Below, one piece after another: positions 50,480 through 61,840 of a stretch of DNA of 64,000 nucleotides. Numbering within the stretch: position 1 is the first letter of the stretch; every line of letters begins with the position of its first letter. A program made the position numbers and the translations under genes. The notes below the pieces were generated by a model. That model was not told the DNA's origin and made no database searches. It saw only the letters and a list, made by a program, of their open reading frames with translations. Source of the DNA: a virus; the IMG/VR virus record IMGVR_UViG_3300027779_003464, positions 54,608 through 118,607 of that record; one strand, given 5' to 3'.

Positions 50480-51298
50480 TTATTTTAAAGAATCTTCGTC
50501 TTTTATAATAAGTAGATAGGTTAAACATGTGTATAGATCTGCGAACCATACTGGCGCTTCATGTGGATAAAACATTCTCATTGATTGATCCAGCTTCTCC
50601 ATTCTTTTAGTATAGGTTAAACTAGGATTTTGTTTACTTATTGACTCGAATAGTATTAGCATTTTCTTAAGATATGGATATCCCGTCGTAAGTTCTACAT
50701 TAGTTCTACCGGTATGGCAGTCATGTCCATATGGATTAGTAGCCTTATTTACTGATTTTATATTATCTAATCCTTTTTTATAGTAGTCAAATATATTATC
50801 GTAGTCCTCGCTTATTTCAAATATATCTTTTCGTTTATATCCAGTTACTTCATATGCTAGGTTTCTCATTTTCTGTAACCACACTGTATCTAAAGTTGAG
50901 GTCATCCTTAATGTTTCTCCTATTCCATTTAATATTTCTATAGAGTCTATTGTGTTTAATCTGCATTGAGTTATAATAATAGGAAATAAAGTAATGATAC
51001 CTCCATAGTTAAGACGACATCCTGTTCTTCCACGTAAAGAATCCTTTTGAGCTTTATAACATAGATCATAAGTAAGAGGAAGTAATGTAGTTTTAGAATC
51101 CTTGGCTTCATTCAATCGCGTAGCCAGTTCTCTGAACGCTTCCCCTATATTTACTCCACCTATTAGGAAATTCTCTAGCTTTACTTCCTCACACATATCC
51201 TTAGATCTAGTAGTTAGACCTGGTTTTTCTGGTATAGGTTCTAGGATAAATGCCAATTGCGCAGCTCTTGCTACTTCATATGCCTCAATCTTATTCAT
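50480..51298 (-). CDS. CitG/MdcB-like triphosphoribosyl-dephospho-CoA synthase family protein
   Basis: 272 residues. LEPIPEKPGLTTRSKDM (~17-33) matches the (T/E)PxPxKPGxVxxxxxxxDM start of the CitG/MdcB family, and a later GCRLNYGGIITLFPI occupies the place of the NTHKGxxFxLG motif, with changes. Family members join ATP and dephospho-CoA to make a prosthetic-group precursor. No citrate or malonate lyase genes are here, so the substrate may differ. It overlaps the upstream kinase gene by 8 bases, so the pair may act together. Confidence 0.6.
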   Translation of the reverse strand: MNKIEAYEVARAAQLAFILEPIPEKPGLTTRSKDMCEEVKLENFLIGGVNIGEAFRELATRLNEAKDSKTTLLPLTYDLCYKAQKDSLRGRTGCRLNYGGIITLFPIIITQCRLNTIDSIEILNGIGETLRMTSTLDTVWLQKMRNLAYEVTGYKRKDIFEISEDYDNIFDYYKKGLDNIKSVNKATNPYGHDCHTGRTNVELTTGYPYLKKMLILFESISKQNPSLTYTKRMEKLDQSMRMFYPHEAPVWFADLYTCLTYLLIIKDEDSLK

Positions 51299-51773
51299 GA
51301 TCTTTATTCAAAAATTTTTTTATGTCACTCCATTCCCACTGTACACCAAACTTCATTTTGGGACCTTTATGATTTTCCCAGAGACTTTTGTGAAAATCTT
51401 TATTGTAGGAAGAAGTTAATATCGCCTGTCTCCATCGTCTGTCATACATATCCCACTGCTTCATGTCTCCTCCGGTTCTTTCAATTTCTCTCTTTAGTCG
51501 GTTGTTGTAGTTTGTTTCAGCATCTAGATCAAGCCATATTAGTATATCAGCATCTTTAGCTATTTCTTTTGCGCCATACTCTTCTCCCCAAGCGCCTTCA
51601 ATTATCCAACTGTCATGTTTAAGATGTTCACGTAAGGAATCAAAGTATTTTCCTTTGTCTTCCCAAGGTTTTAATTTGTCAAGATGCAGAATAGAGATAT
51701 CGTAATCTTTAAGTATTCTATTTGCTAGCTTAGTTTTGCCGTTGCCCTTCTTTCCGAATATGTATATCTTCAT
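51291..51773 (-). CDS. P-loop kinase (topology-modulation/adenylate-kinase-like)
   Basis: 160 residues. Walker A is IFGKKGNGKTKLA (~4-16), then LHLDKLKPW, SWIIEGAWG and ILIWLDLD, the set seen in the small FlaR/adenylate-kinase-like family. The phosphate acceptor is unknown. A TATAAATA box (minus strand) lies ~8-15 bases upstream. Cotranscribed with the CitG-like gene. Confidence 0.75.
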   Translation of the reverse strand: MKIYIFGKKGNGKTKLANRILKDYDISILHLDKLKPWEDKGKYFDSLREHLKHDSWIIEGAWGEEYGAKEIAKDADILIWLDLDAETNYNNRLKREIERTGGDMKQWDMYDRRWRQAILTSSYNKDFHKSLWENHKGPKMKFGVQWEWSDIKKFLNKDHE

Positions 51774-51799: not shown

Positions 51800-51808
51800 C
51801 TACGGAGT
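51800..51808 (+). repeat. CTACGGAGT copy 1
   Basis: Non-coding; preceded by A (ACTACGGAGT). Confidence 0.9.
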
Positions 51809-52154
51809 AACTCCTTCTACGGCTATCGGGCAACGTAGTTCCTGGTGCCGCGGCCCTACTTAATAATATTAATAAAAAGAATAACTCTATATAAGATAAA
51901 AGAAATTATATTTAATATCCTATAGACATTACTTAACCTATAGCTATCAAATAAAATAACCTTATCTATATAAACATTATCTTATACCGAGTTACTATTT
52001 TTAGATCTAGGTACAGGAATAAAAAAGGATAAAGGAATAACCCTTATCCTTAAGCTATAGAATAAGCTTTCGCTATAGGCTAAAGAAATCCAAAGCTAAC
52101 CCCAAGTATCCGGCTACCACGACCAGCGAGGTCTCAAGATATACAACAGGGGGA

Positions 52155-52163
52155 CTACGGAGT
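52155..52163 (+). repeat. CTACGGAGT copy 2
   Basis: Non-coding, context GGGGACTACGGAGTCCCTGG, giving GGGGACT/AGTCCC pairing around it. Confidence 0.9.
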
Positions 52164-52256
52164 CCCTGGCCTACGCTTACCCTCACGTTGGCCTCTGGGT
52201 ACTATAAAGGTTTTCTAGTGTTGGGCGTCTTTCCCGAGCCGTCTAGAAAAATATTC

Positions 52257-52315
52257 GAGCGAGGGAGCCAACATGTGCTCGCCCTACCCGGTGCTCTAGC
52301 TCGCTCATGTCTTGA
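52257..52315. repeat. GAGCSAAC-type element, copy 1 (degenerate)
   Basis: GAGCGAGG, GAGCCAAC (52265-52272), GTGCTCGCC and GCTCGCTC in alternating orientation. Unlike the other copies there is no A-run terminator beside it. Confidence 0.55.
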
Positions 52316-52368
52316 CAAAAGAATACTATCCCCTTAATAAATAATACTATAGATTATCACAGGTGTGA

Positions 52369-52377
52369 CTACGGAGT
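52369..52377 (+). repeat. CTACGGAGT copy 3
   Basis: Lies 31 bases before the recombinase-like start; context GACTACGGAGTACCTGG resembles copy 2. Confidence 0.9.
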
Positions 52378-52407
52378 ACCTGGTTAATCTCAAATAAAAC
52401 TTATGAT

Positions 52408-52989
52408 ATGACTAAAAAGGAGGCAATAGAAGTTATAGGATGTTCCTGGAGTACCTTGAGACGCTATGTCGGTAGGGGACTGATAGGAACCACCACTCTA
52501 CAGAATGGCCACAAGAACTATTGGGAAGACGATGTCTATGCCATGGTAGGTAAACGAATACCACAAGAACATTGGATAGCTATATACTGCCGGGTCAATG
52601 GTAAGTCTAAGGAGGCCGATGAAAAACTACTAGAACAGAAGAGAATTATCTATAGCTGGTGCGCTAAGCGAGGTATTACTATAGATAAAGTATACGAGGA
52701 GCGAGGTCCTTCTACGGAGTACTCACCGGAGCGTCGCCCTGTACTACATTCACTTATGCAAGATATATTTAGTAAGAAGGTAGATGCTGTTATAGTAGAG
52801 ACTAAAGATAGAATAGCTAGAGTCGGCTGGGACATGTTCCAAGAGATGTTTAAGTACCACGGCGTAGAGCCAATAGTTATTAATAAGGTAATTGAAGATC
52901 CGTTCTATCAAGCTGAACAGGCGGATGATATAACTAAGATACTAGAACAGGCTAAGATAGACCGCCTAGGAGATATCAAGAAAGATTAA
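52408..52989 (+). CDS. Serine-recombinase-like protein (IS607 TnpA type) lacking the catalytic serine
   Basis: 193 residues. Residues ~2-45 form a MerR-type helix-turn-helix (TKKEAIEVIGCSWSTLRRYV). The resolvase domain follows: AIYCRVNGKSKEADEKLLEQK corresponds to the family YARVSSxxQ, but the nucleophilic serine position is Asn. ETKDRIARVGWDMF keeps the DRxxR arginines. Recombination may be lost, leaving a DNA-binding regulator, unless the nearby Ser in GKS substitutes. There is no partner TnpB. Codon use (CGG, GGG, CTA) is unlike neighbours. Confidence 0.75.
   Translation: MTKKEAIEVIGCSWSTLRRYVGRGLIGTTTLQNGHKNYWEDDVYAMVGKRIPQEHWIAIYCRVNGKSKEADEKLLEQKRIIYSWCAKRGITIDKVYEERGPSTEYSPERRPVLHSLMQDIFSKKVDAVIVETKDRIARVGWDMFQEMFKYHGVEPIVINKVIEDPFYQAEQADDITKILEQAKIDRLGDIKKD
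52712..52720 (+). repeat. CTACGGAGT copy 4, inside the recombinase-like gene
   Basis: Coded as part of PSTEYSP on the plus strand. Confidence 0.9.
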
Positions 52990-53144
52990 TAGATCACGCC
53001 TAGGACACTCAATCTTCCATCATCAGTATATCTAGTATAGGATATAAAACATCATCGTCTAATAACAATAAATCACTATTTCCCGAATCACCCCGCGGAG
53101 CTAGTACATCTAGGGATCCAAAGTTCTCGGCGGGCACGGGAACC

Positions 53145-53250
53145 GAGCGAACAGGTATCCCATTGGATTTAAAGTGTCAATTTTTGATACTATACTAGTT
53201 GGCTCGGCCCGAGCGAGAAGTGGAAGTCTACCAGATCGCACTGTTGGCTC
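53145..53250. repeat. GAGCSAAC-type element, copy 2
   Basis: GAGCGAAC at 53145, ACTAGTTGGCTC ending at 53205, GAGCGAGAAG at 53211 (GTTGGCTC-GGCCC-GAGCGA hairpin), and GTTGGCTC at 53243. Lies just beyond the terminator of the 53317 gene. Confidence 0.7.
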
Positions 53251-53262
53251 CTGGCTTGGAGC

Positions 53263-53295
53263 AAAAAAAAGGCCCAACCGAAGTTAGACCCTTTT
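53263..53295 (-). terminator. Intrinsic terminator of the 53317-54495 gene
   Basis: On the minus strand, AAGGGTCTAAC-TTCG-GTTGGGCC then eight Ts: a stem with a stable UUCG loop and U-run, 22 bases after the stop. Confidence 0.8.
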
Positions 53296-53316
53296 CCCCC
53301 TAAAAATAAACAATTA

Positions 53317-54495
53317 TTATAGACTCGCGTATTGTGCGAATTCTAAATCATATCCTTCAGTAGTACCTTTAGCAAATAATTCTCCTGCTCTGTACTTTAA
53401 TTCGTGTTGATTATCCAATGGAAAACCTGCATTGTTAGAACCTAAGAAGGTCATTGAATTAACTACATCCCAAATGGTCATACCCGTTTTGATGAAAGCT
53501 TTCTGGCGATCAGCGAGTTTTGTAGGATCTTTTCCTTTTCTAGAAATTCTGGCTAAAGTATCTCCGTATGAATGGAAATAGTTTCTAGCTATAGAGTTCT
53601 GATATTGTTTCTTAATTGATGCGTCTCCTTCTTCTAGTTTATTTGTTGATAACCTAAAGGCGTTTTCAATTTCTTGTAGACTGGCTTTTGTTTGAGTAGC
53701 CTTATTGATAGCTGCTTCAAAGCCCGCTGGTTGAAACCCGTTCTTCTTCATTAAGTCTATCTTATTAAGAAATATCCTAACATCTTCTGCTCCGGTTCCT
53801 TGTAATCTAAATTTATCTTCGAATACAATAGCACTATTGTTTCCAATAGCTCCTTCACCTAAACTTACTCTTAATCCATTATCACATATGAGCCTTTGAT
53901 TATAGGACTCTACTATGGTATCTTTATTAGTTTGAATAAGAGAGAAACCAAATTTAAAGAACTCGTCTTTACCAGCTTGAGCAAAGCCAACCTCATCGTT
54001 GTTAAGTAGGTTTATACTTGACGTTCCGTTATATGGATTGTAATCGACAGTTTCAAGAGATAATTTAGGATTATCATTTAATATTCTTTCAGTCACATCA
54101 AAGAGGGTATCGTTAGTAACTCTTTTATATCTATTAGGAGAACAAATATCTACAACCTCTTTAGTCTTAGTGTTTGCAATAAGCATTACATCTTTCGTTC
54201 TCTTAGACGCAGCATAATCTTTTAGACCATTGATAAGTAATGATGCGATCTTATGATCTCCTGATTTAAGCATCTCACGTGTAAGACTTGTGTTTAACTT
54301 AAGCATACTTCCTAATTTATAAAAGAACCTATCAGATACGCTGACCTGTTGGCCACTGACTATTATTCTTTGTTTAATTAGACTATTACTATCTACTGAA
54401 ATAGCACCGATCGGAACTTGTCTGACTGCCTGTTCGGCTTGTCCTATCGTTTCTTTAATTTCTGCGAATTGATTTTCGCTAATTGTTTTTTTCAT
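53317..54495 (-). CDS. DUF932-like phage protein
   Basis: 392 residues. SVSDRFFYKLGSMLKLN and the long alpha/beta body with NQRLICDNGLRV, then YFHSYGDTLARIS and VVNSMTFLGSNN, are reminiscent of DUF932-type phage/plasmid proteins of unknown function. Monocistronic, with leader TTAAATTTAAACAAATG and its own terminator. Abundant-protein style codon use (early expression) is inferred only. Confidence 0.55.
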   Translation of the reverse strand: MKKTISENQFAEIKETIGQAEQAVRQVPIGAISVDSNSLIKQRIIVSGQQVSVSDRFFYKLGSMLKLNTSLTREMLKSGDHKIASLLINGLKDYAASKRTKDVMLIANTKTKEVVDICSPNRYKRVTNDTLFDVTERILNDNPKLSLETVDYNPYNGTSSINLLNNDEVGFAQAGKDEFFKFGFSLIQTNKDTIVESYNQRLICDNGLRVSLGEGAIGNNSAIVFEDKFRLQGTGAEDVRIFLNKIDLMKKNGFQPAGFEAAINKATQTKASLQEIENAFRLSTNKLEEGDASIKKQYQNSIARNYFHSYGDTLARISRKGKDPTKLADRQKAFIKTGMTIWDVVNSMTFLGSNNAGFPLDNQHELKYRAGELFAKGTTEGYDLEFAQYASL

Positions 54496-54526
54496 TTGTT
54501 TAAATTTAAAGGTTAATTAATTATAC

Positions 54527-55651
54527 TTATATTTTCTTTTTAATTTCATTAGTTATTTCTAATGGGATATCTACGGAGTCATTTTCGTCTAAGTTAATTT
54601 CTGCTCCTCTAATAAATATGTCCTCAAACTTTTTACTTAGGTCTACTTGACGTACCGACTCAGCACTTTCAATCTCTTTAAGTTCGGCTGTCTCTTCAAA
54701 TCTAGTTTCATCGAATACTATTTCGCCATCCTTTAAGTTAAAGTATAATCTTTTACCGATCGCGGATCCTCCTCTTCTATTCTTAGAAAACTCTACATAT
54801 CTTAACCCAGCCTCATCAAATAATATCTCCATCATTGCAGTAGTAGCATGTTTTAGATAGGTCGACCCAACGTACTGTCCTCCTTTAGTCATATGCTGGA
54901 TCGCAAGGATAGCACATCCACTCTTCTCAGCGGAGTCAATCATAACGTTAGTTAACCATGACGTAGCGAAGGTTGTCTTCCAATTATGAACTTCTTTCAA
55001 TTTAACAAGAACATCTTGGTAGGAGTCAAGTAAAATGATATCATAGCCATCAGTAAAAGTTTGCATCAATACCTGATCGAGCTGTCCGGTCTTTACGTAA
55101 TCCATTAGCAGGAGAGTTGGTACGTCAGCAATAGATGGAGTCTTCTTATAATAGAATAAGATATCGTTTCTAGTCATCTCACTAGATATATAAAGTATCT
55201 TAGCGTCTGGGTTTTCTTTCTTAATTGAAGCTAACATATCAAGTAATAAAGTAGATTTACCTACGCCTGATTCTCCAATAACTATATTAACCGTTCCGCC
55301 ATATAGACCTCCACCTTCTTCGTGGTCAGACAATATATTATCAATTGCCTTGCCTGTCTTATGTAAAGAAAAGCTAGGAAATACCATATCTTTAATTGCA
55401 ATAACTTCTGCCTTGATAGGTTTGACTACTACGGAGTCATCCTTAAACGTTTTAGCTATCTCACTGTGGCCCTCTTCTACTATCTTTTTCATAGTACTAT
55501 TAAGACAACCATAGGAAATTTCAGGATGATCTATCTCAAACTTCCTGAAGACGTCAATTACTTTTGCATTGGTAGGTACTTTACCTTCCATTGTAGTGTT
55601 AAACCATTCTCTAACACGTTGTTCTTTTTTTGTTCCTTTCAATTGGATCAT
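54527..55651 (-). CDS. RecA/DnaB-superfamily ATPase (helicase or recombinase)
   Basis: 374 residues. The first ~75 residues are a helical domain; then NIVIGESGVGKSTLLLDML (Walker A, ~123-141), ILYISSEM, YDIILLDSYQD (Walker B, ~205-215) and CAILAIQHMTKGGQYVGST follow the DnaB/RadA-type order. It could be the gp41-type replicative helicase, too short for full gp41, or a RadA/UvsX-like recombinase. Promoter at 55684 and A-rich leader. Two CTACGGAGT copies lie in its coding sequence. Confidence 0.75.
   Translation of the reverse strand: MIQLKGTKKEQRVREWFNTTMEGKVPTNAKVIDVFRKFEIDHPEISYGCLNSTMKKIVEEGHSEIAKTFKDDSVVVKPIKAEVIAIKDMVFPSFSLHKTGKAIDNILSDHEEGGGLYGGTVNIVIGESGVGKSTLLLDMLASIKKENPDAKILYISSEMTRNDILFYYKKTPSIADVPTLLLMDYVKTGQLDQVLMQTFTDGYDIILLDSYQDVLVKLKEVHNWKTTFATSWLTNVMIDSAEKSGCAILAIQHMTKGGQYVGSTYLKHATTAMMEILFDEAGLRYVEFSKNRRGGSAIGKRLYFNLKDGEIVFDETRFEETAELKEIESAESVRQVDLSKKFEDIFIRGAEINLDENDSVDIPLEITNEIKKKI
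54571..54579 (+). repeat. CTACGGAGT copy 5, inside the ATPase gene
   Basis: Read on the minus strand as DSVD near the C-terminus. Confidence 0.9.
55429..55437 (+). repeat. CTACGGAGT copy 6, inside the ATPase gene
   Basis: Read on the minus strand as DSVV in the N-terminal domain. Confidence 0.9.
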
Positions 55652-55679
55652 GTTTATTATTTTTAGGGATTAATAATTA

Positions 55680-55707
55680 ATTGTAAATATAGAAATAATT
55701 TTTGACA
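55680..55707 (-). promoter_or_regulatory. Early-type promoter (TATATTTA) of the ATPase gene
   Basis: -7 box TATATTTA on the minus strand at 55691-55684, with upstream TTTGTCAAAAATTATTTC. About 33 bases before the start. Confidence 0.6.
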
Positions 55708-55719
55708 AATAAAAATATT

Positions 55720-56175
55720 TTATGAATTATTTTCAGATAATTTTTTAAGAGCTGAGTGTTCCTCATTCGATAAACCTTTTACTCCTACTTCTTTTATTCT
55801 ATCTAATAGATCATCTAAGTACCATACCTTCTTAGCTTCTCCTACTCCATGAAATTCTTCAAATGCTTTCTTCATTTCATTAAATGATATTTTATCAGTG
55901 ATCCTGCCTACACAAAAATCAAACTTGACTGAGCTGTCATATAGTTTAAATATCATATAAGGTAGGATTGAATCAGTCTCTTTCATTAGTATATTAAAGA
56001 CTTCTTCAATTTGTTCTGAGGTGTGATCTGTGTGAATCAGGGATAGTATACCTATAGGTAAAGGCATACCCATTTGCCCATCTAATTTACTATCACATAT
56101 AGCGTGTATTGCGGCTATATCTACTTCTGATGCTTCTTGATCTCCAAATCTAATAATTACATAGGATTCTTTCAT
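55720..56175 (-). CDS. Hypothetical early protein
   Basis: 151 residues with mixed alpha/beta (SYVIIRFGDQEASEVDIAAIHA; DSILPYMIFKLYDSSVKFDF). Ends in a helical acidic tail. No motif. Preceded by an early-type promoter and a GAGCSAAC element. Confidence 0.6.
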   Translation of the reverse strand: MKESYVIIRFGDQEASEVDIAAIHAICDSKLDGQMGMPLPIGILSLIHTDHTSEQIEEVFNILMKETDSILPYMIFKLYDSSVKFDFCVGRITDKISFNEMKKAFEEFHGVGEAKKVWYLDDLLDRIKEVGVKGLSNEEHSALKKLSENNS

Positions 56176-56203
56176 ATTATTTGTTTTTAAGTGTTATTGT
56201 TAT

Positions 56204-56240
56204 ATTGTAAATATACTAAAAATGTTGGGAATAAAAAAAT
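56204..56240 (-). promoter_or_regulatory. Early-type promoter (TATATTTA)
   Basis: -7 box at 56215-56208 (minus strand), T-rich upstream tract TTTTTTTATTCCCAACATT. Serves the 56175 gene. Confidence 0.6.
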
Positions 56241-56279
56241 TTAGGGGAACTTTTTTTCAACTTTTCTACATCCCATCAC

Positions 56280-56390
56280 GAGCGATTGTAAAGCCTAGAC
56301 ATATTTTTTCCCAGGGTATAAGTTGGCTCTATTCCCGAGCGAGAAAATCCTCGCTGTTAACATCTTTTCACATACTAGTTCGCTCTGGAG
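56280..56390. repeat. GAGCSAAC-type element, copy 3
   Basis: GAGCGATT at 56280, GTTGGCTC-TATTCCC-GAGCGAGAA hairpin at 56322-56345, and ACTAGTTCGCTC ending at 56385. Sits between a terminator and the 56204 promoter. Confidence 0.7.
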
Positions 56391-56397
56391 TATAGGC

Positions 56398-56426
56398 AAA
56401 AAAAGACCCAGATTTCTCCGGGCCTA
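56398..56426 (-). terminator. Intrinsic terminator of the 56453-56797 gene
   Basis: Minus strand AGGCCCGGAGAAATCTGGGTCT followed by Ts: AGGCCC/GGGTCT stem with one G-T pair, then a U-run. Confidence 0.7.
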
Positions 56427-56452
56427 ATCAACAGCTATATAGACAGTACGCG

Positions 56453-56797
56453 CTACTGGGGATTTTCTTCTATTCTTTCTTTGTGGTATGTTATCATTCC
56501 TTTCTCTTCTTTTAATTTACCTTCATACCACTCTATACTTTCTCTAATACTTCTACGTTTCTTTCTAGTTTCTCCAGCTGAGGTACCTCTAACCGTATTT
56601 GCAAGAGGTCTAAGCGAACGTAGTTTAGTTTCAATAAACTTTATATTTTCCTTAGATTGTTGTAATAACTCTTCATCAGATATTTCTTCTAACATATGCT
56701 CGGGTAATCTAGTCTTCGGCTTAGCGATAGATTTTACTCTATTGATAGCAAAGGAACCTAGGTCCGCAAATAAAGAGTTTTTTAAAGTGTTTAACAT
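56453..56797 (-). CDS. Basic coiled-coil early protein
   Basis: 114 residues, basic and helical with ETRKKRRSIRESIEWYEGKLKEEKG, so a possible nucleic-acid binder. Single gene with its own promoter and terminator. Confidence 0.6.
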   Translation of the reverse strand: MLNTLKNSLFADLGSFAINRVKSIAKPKTRLPEHMLEEISDEELLQQSKENIKFIETKLRSLRPLANTVRGTSAGETRKKRRSIRESIEWYEGKLKEEKGMITYHKERIEENPQ

Positions 56798-56798
56798 A

Positions 56799-56837
56799 TT
56801 GTAAATATAAGAAAAATATTTGACATAAAAAAATATT
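56799..56837 (-). promoter_or_regulatory. Early-type promoter (TATATTTA)
   Basis: -7 box at 56809-56802 on the minus strand, with upstream TATTTTTTTATGTCAAATA. The box is only ~5 bases from the 56797 start, so the leader may be nearly absent. Confidence 0.6.
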
Positions 56838-56840
56838 ATG

Positions 56841-57005
56841 TTACTTTTTTGTTTTTAATTGTTGTCTTATTGTATTACGTTTTGATATAAGTCTAGAGGT
56901 TTCTTCATCATCATTCTTATATCTTTTTAACTTCTTATCAATAAGGTTTAATTCATTTAGTTTGGCTAGCTGTGTTTTGTTGGTACCATTCTTTCTTCTC
57001 GACAT
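56841..57005 (-). CDS. 54-residue basic helical protein
   Basis: Starts MSRRKNGTNKTQLAKLNELN and stays K/R/N-rich to the end. Basic character and length suggest a small nucleic-acid-binding protein. Not identified. Its stop lies at the edge of the next promoter. Confidence 0.5.
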   Translation of the reverse strand: MSRRKNGTNKTQLAKLNELNLIDKKLKRYKNDDEETSRLISKRNTIRQQLKTKK

Positions 57006-57036
57006 TTTTAAAACTGGTTCTAAATTAATATTATGT

Positions 57037-57228
57037 TCACGCTTCCCCGCGAGTATTAACCGCAGACATTACCATTCCAAGTCTAGCTGGTAACACTACT
57101 CCAGAGTTACATGAGTTACAGCATCTACCTCGATTAACAGGTTCTGCATTATTCCCGTGATCCCATATAACTTCTCCTTCTGAATCCTTAATCTTTTCTA
57201 TTTCTTTTTCGCAAATTGAACACTTCAT
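57037..57228 (-). CDS. Small zinc-binding protein
   Basis: 63 residues. CSICEKE at the start and GRCCNSCNSG further on, with DHGNNAEPV between, form an HNH-like or treble-clef zinc site also seen in many small phage proteins. Nuclease activity is uncertain because the catalytic histidines are not clear. Confidence 0.6.
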   Translation of the reverse strand: MKCSICEKEIEKIKDSEGEVIWDHGNNAEPVNRGRCCNSCNSGVVLPARLGMVMSAVNTRGEA

Positions 57229-57229
57229 A

Positions 57230-57424
57230 TTATTGATTTTTTATTAATTGTATCTCGTTGTATATTTGTTGTAATATTTCTAATTTACCTAAAGTAATAT
57301 CTGCATACATAGTCTCTCCTACTTTTGCTACAGTAACTGATTGTCTGTATTCTTCTTCTAATAAGGTTATGTTATCCTCTATTAGTTTTTTAATTTCAGA
57401 TATTTTATCTTTTTCCTTAGACAT
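57230..57424 (-). CDS. Small helical protein
   Basis: 64 residues, two amphipathic helices (KISEIKKLIEDNITLLEEEY; KLEILQQIYNEIQLI). It sits 1 base from the zinc protein and 3 bases from the lipoprotein gene, so one operon. Confidence 0.55.
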   Translation of the reverse strand: MSKEKDKISEIKKLIEDNITLLEEEYRQSVTVAKVGETMYADITLGKLEILQQIYNEIQLIKNQ

Positions 57425-57427
57425 TGA

Positions 57428-57436
57428 CTACGGAGT
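57428..57436 (+). repeat. CTACGGAGT copy 7, forms the lipoprotein stop codon
   Basis: On the minus strand ACTCCGTAG gives TP-stop, ending the lipoprotein gene. Confidence 0.9.
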
Positions 57437-57730
57437 AGATATAATTAATGAATCTGTTACGTTGCTTACGTTATTAAAGTTAGGTGTTGTTCTAACTAAA
57501 GCAAGTAACTCTCCATTTTCATTGGTAATAAATGATACTCTTCCATTATTATAAGAAGCCTCCCAGGTACAATCCCAAGGTACTTCGTTATTCGGAGACA
57601 TATCTAATATTTCCTCAGGAACATCGCAGGAATATAAATTATATTCAGTCTGTTCTGTTGTACCTGCGTTTGGTGTTGTGCATGCGGATATTAATAATAT
57701 CCCTAATGCTAAGCTTAATATCTTTTTCAT
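57428..57730 (-). CDS. Predicted lipoprotein
   Basis: 100 residues. MKKILSLALGILLISACTT is a signal peptide with lipobox LISAC (Cys ~17), so it should be anchored in the host envelope. The mature part has a small beta-rich domain with two further cysteines. Phage lipoproteins often block superinfecting phage, which is a conjecture here. The stop codon lies in a CTACGGAGT copy (…STP-stop). Confidence 0.7.
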   Translation of the reverse strand: MKKILSLALGILLISACTTPNAGTTEQTEYNLYSCDVPEEILDMSPNNEVPWDCTWEASYNNGRVSFITNENGELLALVRTTPNFNNVSNVTDSLIISTP

Positions 57731-57753
57731 AGTTTGATTTTTAAGGGTTCATA

Positions 57754-57790
57754 TAGTAAATATACTAAAAATTACTGACATAAAAAAATT
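57754..57790 (-). promoter_or_regulatory. Early-type promoter (TATATTTA)
   Basis: -7 box at 57764-57757 on the minus strand, with upstream TTTTTTTATGTCAGTAATTT, almost identical to that at 61655. Serves the lipoprotein operon. Confidence 0.65.
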
Positions 57791-57792
57791 AT

Positions 57793-58044
57793 TTAGTACT
57801 TTTTTATTTTTGCAATGATAACTTCTTTTTCTCCGGCGCCATCTACTATTGTAACAATATTAGAAATCTTCACTCGTTCAAGGGCCGCCTTATATCCAAG
57901 CCTTGGATTTTTTATCTCTCCGATAGACAGAGCCGCGTTATACGCAGCCTTAAAGCTACTCGCCGCTCCACAGTTTTGCCGGATGGTCTCTCCCAAAGGG
58001 GAGTAGATATCAAGAGAACCTAGTATGAAATACATATCCTTCAC
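57793..58044 (-). CDS. Small hypothetical protein
   Basis: 83 residues from a GTG that overlaps the previous stop by 4 bases; an ATG three codons later (58035) is the alternative. FILGSLDIYSPLGETIRQNCGAASSF and repeated AA motifs suggest a small alpha/beta fold. Unknown. Confidence 0.5.
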   Translation of the reverse strand: MKDMYFILGSLDIYSPLGETIRQNCGAASSFKAAYNAALSIGEIKNPRLGYKAALERVKISNIVTIVDGAGEKEVIIAKIKKY

Positions 58045-58316
58045 TCTTGTTTACCTTTTATTTTATCTATAATATTTCTTACTACCGAACAGTTTTCATA
58101 TTCCTCTATTGATACAAAATAATCCATCACCTTAGTAAGAGCCTTAATCTTATCAGCTGACGGTGTAGGATCATCTACCGCATACTCTTTATTATTATTA
58201 ATAGATTCAAATACTAATGAATAAAATCCATGTATATCCTCTTTCTTTAATCGAGCTAATAACTTTAATAGTTTAATATCTGCAGGTAGCAGATGCTTTT
58301 TAAAATCTTCCTTCAT
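58041..58316 (-). CDS. Small protein with UVR-like C-terminus
   Basis: 91 residues, helical. The end FVSIEEYENCSVVRNIIDKIK resembles the UVR hairpin, as does the 22692 gene product. Starts inside the end of the metzincin gene. Confidence 0.5.
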   Translation of the reverse strand: MKEDFKKHLLPADIKLLKLLARLKKEDIHGFYSLVFESINNNKEYAVDDPTPSADKIKALTKVMDYFVSIEEYENCSVVRNIIDKIKGKQE

Positions 58317-58761
58317 ATTCTTTTGTTTTACATTTATTTAAATATTCAGATATAATTGATTCATAGTTATCCTTATAGTATTTTTCATCTAAACATTTAT
58401 GATACATTATACTTCTTTCATCACAATGATTTAAATTAAATACATAGTGGCCTAACTCATGGAATAGTATTACCCTTGTTGTATAGGGTCCACTACGGAG
58501 TTCATCTATATTTAACATTATAATACTATTATACTTATCTGAAACTCCAGCGTGACTACTGCTATTACCAATTATAATATTATCTATTCGTTTAAATCCT
58601 GCCATATATTGAATATCATTATCTTCCATCAACCCTTTCCATTCTTCTACGAGTGAGGTTAATTGTGGATCAACGAACGGTTCTTGCTCGAATTTAGCAT
58701 ATTGCTTTGCTAAAAACAAAGTAACTAATACTATAATGAATATGTATTTAATAGATCTCAT
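58300..58761 (-). CDS. Membrane-anchored or secreted metzincin-like metalloprotease
   Basis: 153 residues. An N-terminal hydrophobic segment (~4-18) is a signal or anchor. LFHELGHYVFNLNHCDERSIMYH gives HExxH, a third His and a SIMY Met-turn, as in matrixin-type zincins, although the HExxH-to-His spacing is one residue longer than classical. Likely a periplasmic or outer-surface protease acting on the host. One CTACGGAGT copy lies in the coding region. Confidence 0.7.
   Translation of the reverse strand: MRSIKYIFIIVLVTLFLAKQYAKFEQEPFVDPQLTSLVEEWKGLMEDNDIQYMAGFKRIDNIIIGNSSSHAGVSDKYNSIIMLNIDELRSGPYTTRVILFHELGHYVFNLNHCDERSIMYHKCLDEKYYKDNYESIISEYLNKCKTKEYEGRF
58493..58501 (+). repeat. CTACGGAGT copy 8, inside the metzincin gene
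   Basis: Read on the minus strand as ELRSG. Confidence 0.9.
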
Positions 58762-58790
58762 GTGTAAATATAATAAATTTTTTTGACATT
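58761..58790 (-). promoter_or_regulatory. Early-type promoter, almost touching the start codon
   Basis: -7 box TATATTTA at 58772-58765, only 3 bases from the 58761 ATG. The transcript would be nearly leaderless. Confidence 0.55.
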
Positions 58791-58796
58791 TAATAA

Positions 58797-59144
58797 TTAA
58801 TTAGACTTTTCTTCTTCAATAGATTTTTGTGCCTGTTTAAATATTAGGTCAGCAGCCTCTTCACCAAACATATCATTAACCATTCCTTCAAGAAAAGTTA
58901 AGCCGTCTTCTACTTTCCTAATATATAGTTTATCTACTTTCTTATCATTTACATTAGTTACTGCTCCTGAAATAATTAGGTCTGCTATATCTTTTATTAC
59001 ATCATAGTATATACTAGTACTGTGGTATAATCCTACTATTTCTGTTGGAGATAAATCCTGTATTTGAGCATCTTGAAAGAAGAAATCCTTTCCGATCTCA
59101 TGGTCATCCTCACCATTAAATATAATTACGCTAGTTGGTCCCAT
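58797..59144 (-). CDS. Hypothetical early protein
   Basis: 115 residues, acidic, starting MGPTSVIIFNGEDDHEIGKDF and ending in helices with KAQKSIEEEKSN. One base from the sigma-factor gene, so it could modulate it (anti-sigma or partner), but only position suggests this. Confidence 0.55.
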   Translation of the reverse strand: MGPTSVIIFNGEDDHEIGKDFFFQDAQIQDLSPTEIVGLYHSTSIYYDVIKDIADLIISGAVTNVNDKKVDKLYIRKVEDGLTFLEGMVNDMFGEEAADLIFKQAQKSIEEEKSN

Positions 59145-59145
59145 T

Positions 59146-59880
59146 TTAAATATTGTTAGTTAATTTATAATTATCTTTCAAAGTCTGTCTAGCTTGATTT
59201 AGGATTTGACATACTCTAACTTGAGTTATTCCTACTCTTTCAGCTATTTCGATAGTAGGTACTTCATGTCCAGTTTCTATTCCATAGTATAATCTTATTA
59301 TCGTTTGGTCTCTATCTTTTAAAGTAGATAATAATGAATTAACTTTTTCCCGAAAGAACTCTCGGTTGTGATCACCGTTTACTGATGGCTCTACTTGAGT
59401 AAGATAATCTGCTCTTGTAGTAGTTGATTCACTTGATACGAAATCATCCATTTTTACGGTACTTAGATTATCTACATCTTCTCCATTTTTAATTGAGAGA
59501 TATCTTTGATATTCTTGATTAACAGGTAACCTAACTATTCTACCACATCGGTCAATTAATTCATTCATCATCTTAAGTATTCTGCTACTTGCAAAAGTAG
59601 CTAATCTTACATTCGAGTCTGGATCAAACCTATGAACTGATTCGTATAGTCCAATATTTCCCTGTTGAATAAGATCATCTACATCTATTCCTCTTCCCCT
59701 ATTCTTATTAGCTATAGTTACAACAATCTTTAGATTATGTTGAACCAACTTGTTTAAAGCAGCTTTGCTACCTTTGTGCGCTTTTCGCGCAAGACTTAAT
59801 TCCTCTTTTTTTGTTAGAGGATCTAAATTCTTAATAGATTTAAAGTATCTATCTAAACTTTCTGATTTTTGATAATACAT
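59146..59880 (-). CDS. RNA polymerase sigma-70 family factor
   Basis: 244 residues, against ~287 for bacteroidotal RpoD. Region 1.2/2: SLDRYFKSIKNLDPLTKKEEL, LVQHNLKIVVTIANKNRGRGI, DDLIQQGNIGLYESVHRFD. Region 4 HTH: PTIEIAERVGITQVRVCQILNQA. Region 3 is shortened. It could redirect host polymerase to the TATAAATA/AATAAATAA boxes of virion genes, as gp55 does in T4; this is inference. No early-type box of the main family is visible just upstream. Confidence 0.9.
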   Translation of the reverse strand: MYYQKSESLDRYFKSIKNLDPLTKKEELSLARKAHKGSKAALNKLVQHNLKIVVTIANKNRGRGIDVDDLIQQGNIGLYESVHRFDPDSNVRLATFASSRILKMMNELIDRCGRIVRLPVNQEYQRYLSIKNGEDVDNLSTVKMDDFVSSESTTTRADYLTQVEPSVNGDHNREFFREKVNSLLSTLKDRDQTIIRLYYGIETGHEVPTIEIAERVGITQVRVCQILNQARQTLKDNYKLTNNI

Positions 59881-59925
59881 GTGTTTGTTTTTAATTGTTA
59901 TTATTATGTTCTTTATTATAAATAT

Positions 59926-60087
59926 CTAGCTTTTCGGTAAAAGCCTCTCCATTATTCCATTATAATCTAATTCATACGTTTTATAATGGTGATGCTCTCC
60001 GTATCTAGTTAATTCCTTTTTTAGTTTGTCAATAGCTTTAATTAACTCTGGTCCAAACTTTTTCTTTTCAATTTTTTTAGGGTTCAT
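59926..60087 (-). CDS. 53-residue basic protein
   Basis: MNPKKIEKKKFGPELIKAID opens a mostly helical protein with a YGEHHHYKTYEL middle. It is a real-looking small gene upstream of the sigma factor. Function unknown. Confidence 0.5.
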   Translation of the reverse strand: MNPKKIEKKKFGPELIKAIDKLKKELTRYGEHHHYKTYELDYNGIMERLLPKS

Positions 60088-60117
60088 GCTTTATTATATT
60101 AAATTAATAATTAGTTA

Positions 60118-60126
60118 CTACGGAGT
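60118..60126 (+). repeat. CTACGGAGT copy 9, forms a stop codon
   Basis: As at 57428, the minus strand gives TP-stop and ends the membrane-protein gene. Confidence 0.9.
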
Positions 60127-60321
60127 TGATGTGGTATCTGCCTCTTCATTGGCTTCATTCCAACCTTCTACCATATAATCAATAGTTTGCTTAGTTGATT
60201 TAGCGCCTTCCTTAACTATATTATAAGGTTCTCCTTTTTCTTTTGAATCGTAATATCCTCCAATAGCACCTATTAGTATAACCAAGAGAATAATAGAAAT
60301 AATGTCTTTAAGTATTTTCAT
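60118..60321 (-). CDS. Small single-pass membrane protein
   Basis: 67 residues. Residues ~5-24 are a membrane segment (KDIISIILLVILIGAIGG), followed by a charged outer or inner domain ending TTSTP. The stop is supplied by a CTACGGAGT copy. Confidence 0.6.
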   Translation of the reverse strand: MKILKDIISIILLVILIGAIGGYYDSKEKGEPYNIVKEGAKSTKQTIDYMVEGWNEANEEADTTSTP

Positions 60322-60578
60322 CTTTTATTATTTTTAGATTGACGGTACAAGGTTTCCGCTTTGCCTAAGTTACCGTTTGCCGTAATGATGGCTCCTAATT
60401 CTACAGAAAAATTCTTCTTAAAGAAACTAATTGTTTTAGAATCTGTAGGATGTAGTATATAAGGAATGCATCCATATAACGAGGTTAATCTATCGGATAT
60501 TCCCATTCGTTTAAGCTTTTTGCGTACTCTATCAGTAGCGCCAATTTTAATTAATGTATCTATTTCAGTTGCTTTCAT
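60318..60578 (-). CDS. Small hypothetical protein
   Basis: 86 residues, basic, with DTLIKIGATDRVRKKLKRMG and a serine/lysine end. Overlaps the membrane-protein gene by 4 bases. Confidence 0.55.
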   Translation of the reverse strand: MKATEIDTLIKIGATDRVRKKLKRMGISDRLTSLYGCIPYILHPTDSKTISFFKKNFSVELGAIITANGNLGKAETLYRQSKNNKR

Positions 60579-60769
60579 ATGTTATTAAATTTTTTAGCTT
60601 CGTTAATCAATTCCTTTGCGTTAGATTTAACTAACTTAATATCATACTGAAGCTCGTGAAAATGTGATTTGAAATAATTAACCACATCTCGAATAGTCAT
60701 CTGTCCAGACTCTGCAATACGTTCTCTAATTTGAGATTCCGTAAATTTTACTATCATAATTTCTGCCAT
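60575..60769 (-). CDS. Small protein with winged-helix-like region
   Basis: 64 residues from the ATG at 60769, preferred to a TTG ten codons upstream that falls next to the promoter. FTESQIRERIAESGQMTIRDVVNYF looks like a small helical DNA-binding element. Confidence 0.5.
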   Translation of the reverse strand: MAEIMIVKFTESQIRERIAESGQMTIRDVVNYFKSHFHELQYDIKLVKSNAKELINEAKKFNNI

Positions 60770-60792
60770 GTTAAATTGTTTTAAGTTATTAT

Positions 60793-60829
60793 AGTACAAA
60801 TATAGAAATAATAATTGGGATAAAAAAAT
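60793..60829 (-). promoter_or_regulatory. Early-type promoter (TATATTTG)
   Basis: -7 box TATATTTG at 60804-60797 on the minus strand, with upstream TTTTTTTATCCCAATTATT. Drives the operon 60769-60118. Confidence 0.65.
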
Positions 60830-60844
60830 CCTGGCGAACTTTTT

Positions 60845-61369
60845 TTAACAAAAGATTACTAATCCTTTATCTGATGCTATCTTCAGCGCGCTCATCCATT
60901 CATTATACTTATCAATATAGTATATAGAATCCTCACTATCATCGCAGTTCTCCTTAACATATTTCTTAAAGATAGTTTTATACTCTTTAAAGTCTCTGTA
61001 TAATTCAGCCGCTACGGAGTAACATATAGTTCCTTCACAATCTGAAAAATCTATTAAAGCTCCAAATGCTTCGCTCCCCCAGTATCTACCTGATGACCAG
61101 AAGTCGTCTGCACTTATACCATGTATTGCTTTACATAATATATCTCTAAATTGATTATATCCACGATAGCTACCTGCTCTAAAACTACCTTCAACGGATT
61201 CTGCAGTAAGATATACTTTTCCCATACCGTTTGTTAGTGGAAAAGAGTGGCATCTTTCCTTAAAATCGTCGCCAACTCCGAACGTAAATTCTTCAAACAG
61301 CTCGCTGCCTAAACCTAATAGTTCGTCCGATGTTTTGACTTTACTTATATACATAATATCTAGTCCCAT
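60845..61369 (-). CDS. Hypothetical early protein
   Basis: 174 residues, aromatic and acidic (GSYRGYNQFRDILCKAIHG; SSGRYWGSEAFGALIDFSDCEG). Conserved-looking protein of the sort found in phages as an uncharacterised family; not identified. Starts at the end of the DUF2693-like gene. Confidence 0.6.
   Translation of the reverse strand: MGLDIMYISKVKTSDELLGLGSELFEEFTFGVGDDFKERCHSFPLTNGMGKVYLTAESVEGSFRAGSYRGYNQFRDILCKAIHGISADDFWSSGRYWGSEAFGALIDFSDCEGTICYSVAAELYRDFKEYKTIFKKYVKENCDDSEDSIYYIDKYNEWMSALKIASDKGLVIFC
61012..61020 (+). repeat. CTACGGAGT copy 10
   Basis: Inside the 60845 gene, read as YSVA on the minus strand. The last copy; none seen in 61.1-64 kb. Confidence 0.9.
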
Positions 61370-61690: not shown

Positions 61691-61719
61691 TATTTCACAC
61701 TTTTTTTGAAAATAGTTTC

Positions 61720-61840
61720 GAGCCAACAAGCAACTCGCATGCCAAATTTGGCACAAGTTAGAGTTCGCTCAGAAGCCGAGCGAACATTACATTATCCGCC
61801 GAGGATTAACCTAAATCCAAGTTCGCCCCAGGAATCGAGC
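61720..61840. repeat. GAGCSAAC-type element, copy 4
   Basis: GAGCCAAC at 61720, perfect hairpin GTTCGCTC-AGAAGCC-GAGCGAAC at 61763-61785, GTTCGCCCC at 61821, GAGC at 61837. A GCCAAATTTGGC palindrome lies at 61741. Located between terminator and promoter. Confidence 0.75.

Follow-up and report, generated by a model that had tools for sequence, protein, structure and literature searches.

Ten exact copies of a 9-bp word, CTACGGAGT, stand on one strand of a viral genome around a gene for an IS607-type serine transposase whose catalytic serine has been replaced, and the same pairing of word array and dead transposase recurs in eight other phage lineages. We propose an undescribed phage system in which the dead transposase would read exact, co-oriented 9-bp words and organize the early region into a polar nucleoprotein domain, with orientation imposed between the sites rather than by the genes, such that the array may face either way; we give this proposal about an even chance of being correct. 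Among the listed matches of a literature search, none described the word as a phage motif.

The window analyzed here is the final 64 kb (64,000 nucleotides) of a 118,607-bp viral record. All ten copies of CTACGGAGT lie on its plus strand between positions 51800 and 61020 (Table 1), and no other copy was found on either strand of the full record, compared with a mean of 0.10 copies and a maximum of 1 in dinucleotide shuffles. By k-mer counting, no short words were more over-represented in the region than this one and its sub-words. Because allowing one mismatch adds just three scattered matches (about 5 expected) and none within the array, the array consists of exact copies. A sequence-only reading of the window had listed the ten copies, and every position was confirmed, on evidence now much stronger than that reader could know. 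It was also right that the sites fall in non-coding DNA, inside genes in different frames and, twice, at stop codons; the longer form that it reported, ACTACGGAGT, is indeed common but is read by seven copies rather than six. Neither an even spread over both strands nor a lack of conservation in relatives, the two outcomes that it had named as refutations, was encountered.

Table 1. Copies of the word and neighboring genes (window coordinates).
Feature	Position	Strand	Remarks
Word 1	51800..51808	+	Non-coding, between gene 51291-51773(-) and tnpA; 608 bp 5' of tnpA start
Word 2	52155..52163	+	Non-coding, 253 bp 5' of tnpA start; context GGGACTACGGAGTCCCTGG
Word 3	52369..52377	+	39 bp 5' of tnpA start codon
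pseudo-TnpA (tnpA)	52408..52989	+	IS607-type serine transposase: MerR-like HTH and resolvase domain; YCRVN; helix-E motif lost; no TnpB
Word 4	52712..52720	+	Within tnpA at +304; codes S-T-E; offset shared with phage G022
DUF932-like (weak)	53317..54495	-	Conserved neighbor, between tnpA and RadA-like gene in most word phages
RadA/Sms-like ATPase	54527..55651	-	TIGR00416 4.1e-13, PDB RadA match; words in both poorly conserved linkers
Word 5	54571..54579	+	RadA-like gene, C-terminal tail (LDENDSVD); position kept in relatives
Word 6	55429..55437	+	RadA-like gene, N-terminal linker (KDDSVVV); position kept in relatives; orientation to gene opposite in G019
Word 7	57428..57436	+	Provides stop codon of gene 57428-57730(-)
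Word 8	58493..58501	+	Within gene 58300-58761(-)
Word 9	60118..60126	+	Provides stop codon of short minus-strand gene ~60118-60321
Word 10	61012..61020	+	Within gene 60845-61369(-)

The gene at 52408, which the earlier reading had called recombinase-like, does belong to such a family: its product is IS607-type by both sequence and fold, with an HTH followed by a resolvase catalytic domain. It matches phrog_6620 (2.7e-26), Pfam Resolvase and the NCBIfam IS607 model (NF033518; 2.3e-27, with scores of 95.8 and 80, under the curated cut-off of 110). The predicted fold resembles the IS607 catalytic domains 3lhk and 6dgc (Foldseek E ~1e-9 to 1e-10), and the predicted DNA-binding head resembles BldC (6amk), though the E-value of 0.055 is weak. 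Residue 64, at the nucleophile position of YxRVS, is Asn. No tnpB was found among the adjacent genes; in annotated phage IS607 copies, a second transposase gene follows TnpA.

Relatives of this protein in eight other phage lineages are 43-48% identical to it. The catalytic serine of YxRVS is replaced (by N, A, P, G or D) in all nine word-bearing lineages and kept in all eight outgroup proteins, and a branch with a support of 100/100 separates the dead proteins from all others in a tree whose outgroups included five annotated or public phage IS607 proteins beside serine-bearing homologues. The helix-E motif of active proteins (IIHxFSxRxYxxR) is replaced throughout the dead clade, three members of which additionally lack the Asp of the DRLxR motif. 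Every dead-TnpA lineage carries a word array, with 10 exact copies in the window's record and 6-18 in those of its relatives; the six records with serine-bearing homologues (L118, L119, L122, L124, L127 and L128; 78-256 kb; proteins 32-34% identical) contain none.

The family was missed by single-protein scans and was recovered by portal, spacing-pattern and alignment scans. Among the sixteen records of the portal-protein scan, the word was found, beyond the window's own record, only in G011 (17 copies), G015 (6) and G013 (3), on a single strand within each; the words of the latter two stand at contig ends (the G013 contig stops about 400 bp past its outermost word), and a gene for a TnpA relative was present in just G011 and G015. 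Scans for a two-word spacing (0.3 kb) and for the aligned family added G017 (16), G018 (14), G019 (16), G020 (9), G021 (18, plus one on the other strand) and G022 (16), and recovered the near-duplicate records G016 and G023. Since the word was part of the spacing query, the word-bearing records from that scan are a biased sample; the portal and protein-family scans did not use it, and in each of them word presence split dead from serine-bearing proteins completely, within a sample of nine lineages, six of them one clade, and few complete genomes. The word is coupled to the dead TnpA clade. The earlier suggestion of a recognition sequence tied to the 52408 product is strongly supported by this phylogenetic coupling, but the recombination, packaging, uptake or Chi-like mechanism offered with it is unsupported, because the word-bearing family members all lack the catalytic serine and the array keeps to a single domain of 5-28 kb. 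A pattern scan of cultivated bacterial and archaeal genomes returned no relative of the dead TnpA.

Some returns of the spacing scan were set aside: isolated word pairs are probably chance, the equally spaced words in a long reading frame of L099/G035 were judged another phenomenon, and so were those of G032/G033. In this 327-kb phage (G032, with loci L089 and L085, and G033, with L101) the word occurs 20 times, apparently as the Shine-Dalgarno element within a conserved leader sequence, CACTACGGAGT, that lies a few nucleotides 5' of ATG; it is probably unrelated to the dead TnpA.

Across ten records there are 134 co-oriented sites, against the one stray copy in G021. The site consensus has A at -1 in 85% of cases, followed by CTACGGAGT and then mostly by AA(A) or CC. 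One-mismatch copies are at background overall; two in G020 have kept their flanks and resemble decayed sites. The sites are depleted within genes, which hold only 59 of the 134 although gene coverage is 79% (by a simple gene caller). Each array is limited to one domain, with no words outside it in the 118.6-kb record, G011, G017 or G019. tnpA lies near one end, and the array extends 8-22 kb downstream and 0.4-8 kb upstream of it; that of G015 reaches 1.3 kb downstream, where the contig ends. From 1.1 kb upstream of the tnpA start to the end of the gene there are 2-6 words, at conserved offsets: one at -123 to -143 in seven of nine, one at +193/196 in six, and one at +304 in two (G000, the window's record, and G022). 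The +196 word codes TTES directly behind the lost serine. Words are single and 0.1-6 kb apart, not adjacent. Periodic spacing was considered and rejected, as gaps are wide and show no clear periodicity, and so was an extended palindrome (GGACT-ACGG-AGTCC, TTACT-ACGG-AGTAA), whose flanks and arms show no significant covariation; the word itself is not palindromic.

Cooperative binding of 9-bp directly repeated motifs, with spreading, has been described for IS1535 TnpA, and the IS607-type TnpA dimer may hold two DNAs (PMC6188088). Protomers of the MerR-like protein BldC line up head-to-tail on 9-bp direct repeats in a fixed direction (PMC5859096). A dead TnpA with a 9-bp word is consistent with this biochemistry. 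By analogy, we suggest that the 52408 product is a domesticated IS607-type serine transposase, bereft of its catalytic serine and TnpB partner, each protomer of which would contact a single CTACGGAGT through its MerR-like head, always in one direction, in the manner of IS1535 TnpA and BldC on their 9-bp direct repeats. The word clusters at the tnpA start suggest autoregulation and nucleation: the protein may control its own gene from this cluster, and a polar bridging or spreading complex could assemble from it and from further co-oriented words. The 5-28 kb spanned by such a complex would take in the RadA-like gene along with the early-type promoters. In the course of infection, the complex would most likely shut down, insulate or compact this early region, acting as an architectural element or a silencer. 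This chain—CTACGGAGT as the binding word of the 52408 product, autoregulation, a polar complex over the domain and control of the early region—is the best explanation that we can offer, and we hold it with roughly half of our confidence. Four points run counter to it: sites 1-2 kb apart would demand spreading over kilobases, beyond the ~70 bp observed with IS1535; uniform orientation is not something that a plain silencer of transcription needs; most promoters have no word at a fixed distance; and recombination or replication may be what the RadA-like gene indicates.

The word domain is rich in TATATTTAC-type promoters, probably early ones to judge from the promoter class and the small-gene context, and TATATTTA[CG] promoter sites cluster within it in four phages, on the strand opposite the words in G000, G011 and G017 and on the words' own strand in G019. 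The promoters suggest a host among the Bacteroidota. Several words fall in the gap that separates an intrinsic terminator from the promoter after it, and words show no fixed distance to most promoters. A promoter-fixed operator was rejected: in G018 and G021, only about half the words stand upstream of an early promoter at ~260 bp or less, and no word of the tnpA/RadA half does. In all nine records with a portal gene, the words are on its strand. The G019 record gave no portal match; flipping the contig makes both its late genes and its word region collinear with those of G017 and puts its words on the opposite strand. Because this array is flipped whole relative to the genes and is still uniform, the words are co-oriented with each other and not with transcription, which argues for inter-site interactions, directional assembly, or an orientation set by a movable feature such as a replication origin, although independent orientation events are few (G019 versus the rest).

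In one rival account, which we regard as unlikely, the words are polar replication sites: a protein-word complex would stop or steer the fork from one side (Tus/Ter-like) or mark an origin-proximal domain, with orientation following fork direction. The strictness of word orientation irrespective of gene strand and the constant agreement with the portal strand speak for it, as does a C-terminal tail, HPGKIxPxWExxP...LSDL(M/I), conserved in six TnpAs (L084, L096, L102, L107, G011 and G015), whose LSDL(M/I) end we take to be reminiscent of sliding-clamp-binding tails. The flipped G019 array would, however, require a moved origin, and Ter-like arrays are not known to be this dense.

The proposed polar complex has partial counterparts among known systems. 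IS607-family TnpA proteins (IS1535, ISC1926, IS607; NF033518) share the fold, the inverted domain order (HTH first) and 9-bp directly repeated motifs, binding being predicted for the dead TnpA; unlike them, the dead TnpA lacks the catalytic serine, the helix-E motif and TnpB and scores below the NF033518 cut-off, and its words are dispersed across 5-28 kb of a phage genome rather than standing at transposon ends. BldC shares 9-bp asymmetric direct repeats, directional binding (predicted here) and, at a weak E-value, the fold of the DNA-binding head, but BldC sites are adjacent repeats at promoters, whereas the phage words are single, 0.1-6 kb apart and in one direction. TldR, a domesticated nuclease-dead TnpB, is a transposon protein made into a regulator via active-site loss; it is RNA-guided, whereas the phage system involves TnpA and a predicted protein-DNA word. 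If the proposal is true, a domesticated serine transposase would serve as a sequence-specific DNA organizer, and the polarity of a site array would be under selection independent of transcription. The system would offer a compact, testable model for co-oriented sites acting over kilobases and, for DNA engineering, a candidate orthogonal pair of protein and site, and the word together with the dead TnpA could mark a large, nearly undescribed group of uncultured phages.

In MatP/matS, ParB/parS and RacA, a dedicated DNA-binding protein likewise works with short sites that recur within one domain only (the protein being predicted here); however, these proteins are unrelated to the dead TnpA, act on cellular chromosomes and use sites that are mostly palindromic or not uniformly oriented. 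We consider it unlikely that the dead transposase binds a centromere in the manner of ParB or RacA and gathers the domain so that it can be segregated, positioned or packaged. Multiple exact sites over a single domain adjoin the gene of the presumed binding protein, whose predicted IS607-type fold belongs to a family that may hold two DNAs together, but the neighbor of tnpA is RadA-like and no ParA-like partner was found beside it; parS and other partition sites are palindromes without orientation, and the word is neither palindromic nor unoriented.

The RadA-like gene carries words in all nine phages in which it was found, in two poorly conserved linkers (both in six phages, one in three) and in the same frame, read as xSVV and xSVE/xSVD; no RadA-like match was found in G001, the closest phage by portal. 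In G019 the gene is reversed relative to the words, and the word of the N-terminal linker is again present, read as TTES. Since this linker keeps the word in the opposite reading, selection acts on the DNA word and not on the protein sequence. A word-bearing RadA-like ATPase gene might instead indicate a recombination-linked word, either Chi-like or a set of direct-repeat sites for another recombinase, working with that ATPase. Direct orientation would suit recombination, and oriented words are Chi-like in appearance, as both Chi and KOPS are short, exact and strand-biased. Those words are genome-wide and read by motor proteins, though, whereas the phage word is confined to one domain, with the rest of the genome free of it, is tied to a dead transposase and can be flipped as a set. 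The sole co-varying recombinase is dead, and deletion between direct repeats would lose conserved genes, leaving this reading quite unlikely. That the words are scars or inserts from a mobile element with no present function is disfavored as highly improbable: the copies are exact and a transposase-like gene adjoins them, but the flanks share no longer repeat, the transposase is dead, and exact words are kept at homologous places in RadA-like proteins only 52-72% identical, for which selection is needed.

The predicted structure of the DUF932-like neighbor gave no informative PDB match. The word domain also includes a gene for a phage-encoded sigma-70 factor with regions 1.2, 2 and 4 (window 59146-59880), relatives of which occur in several word phages. 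Intergenic repeats of GAGCGAG, GTTCGCTC and AGTTGGCTC were observed beside terminators at window positions 53200, 56320-56380 and 61700-61830.
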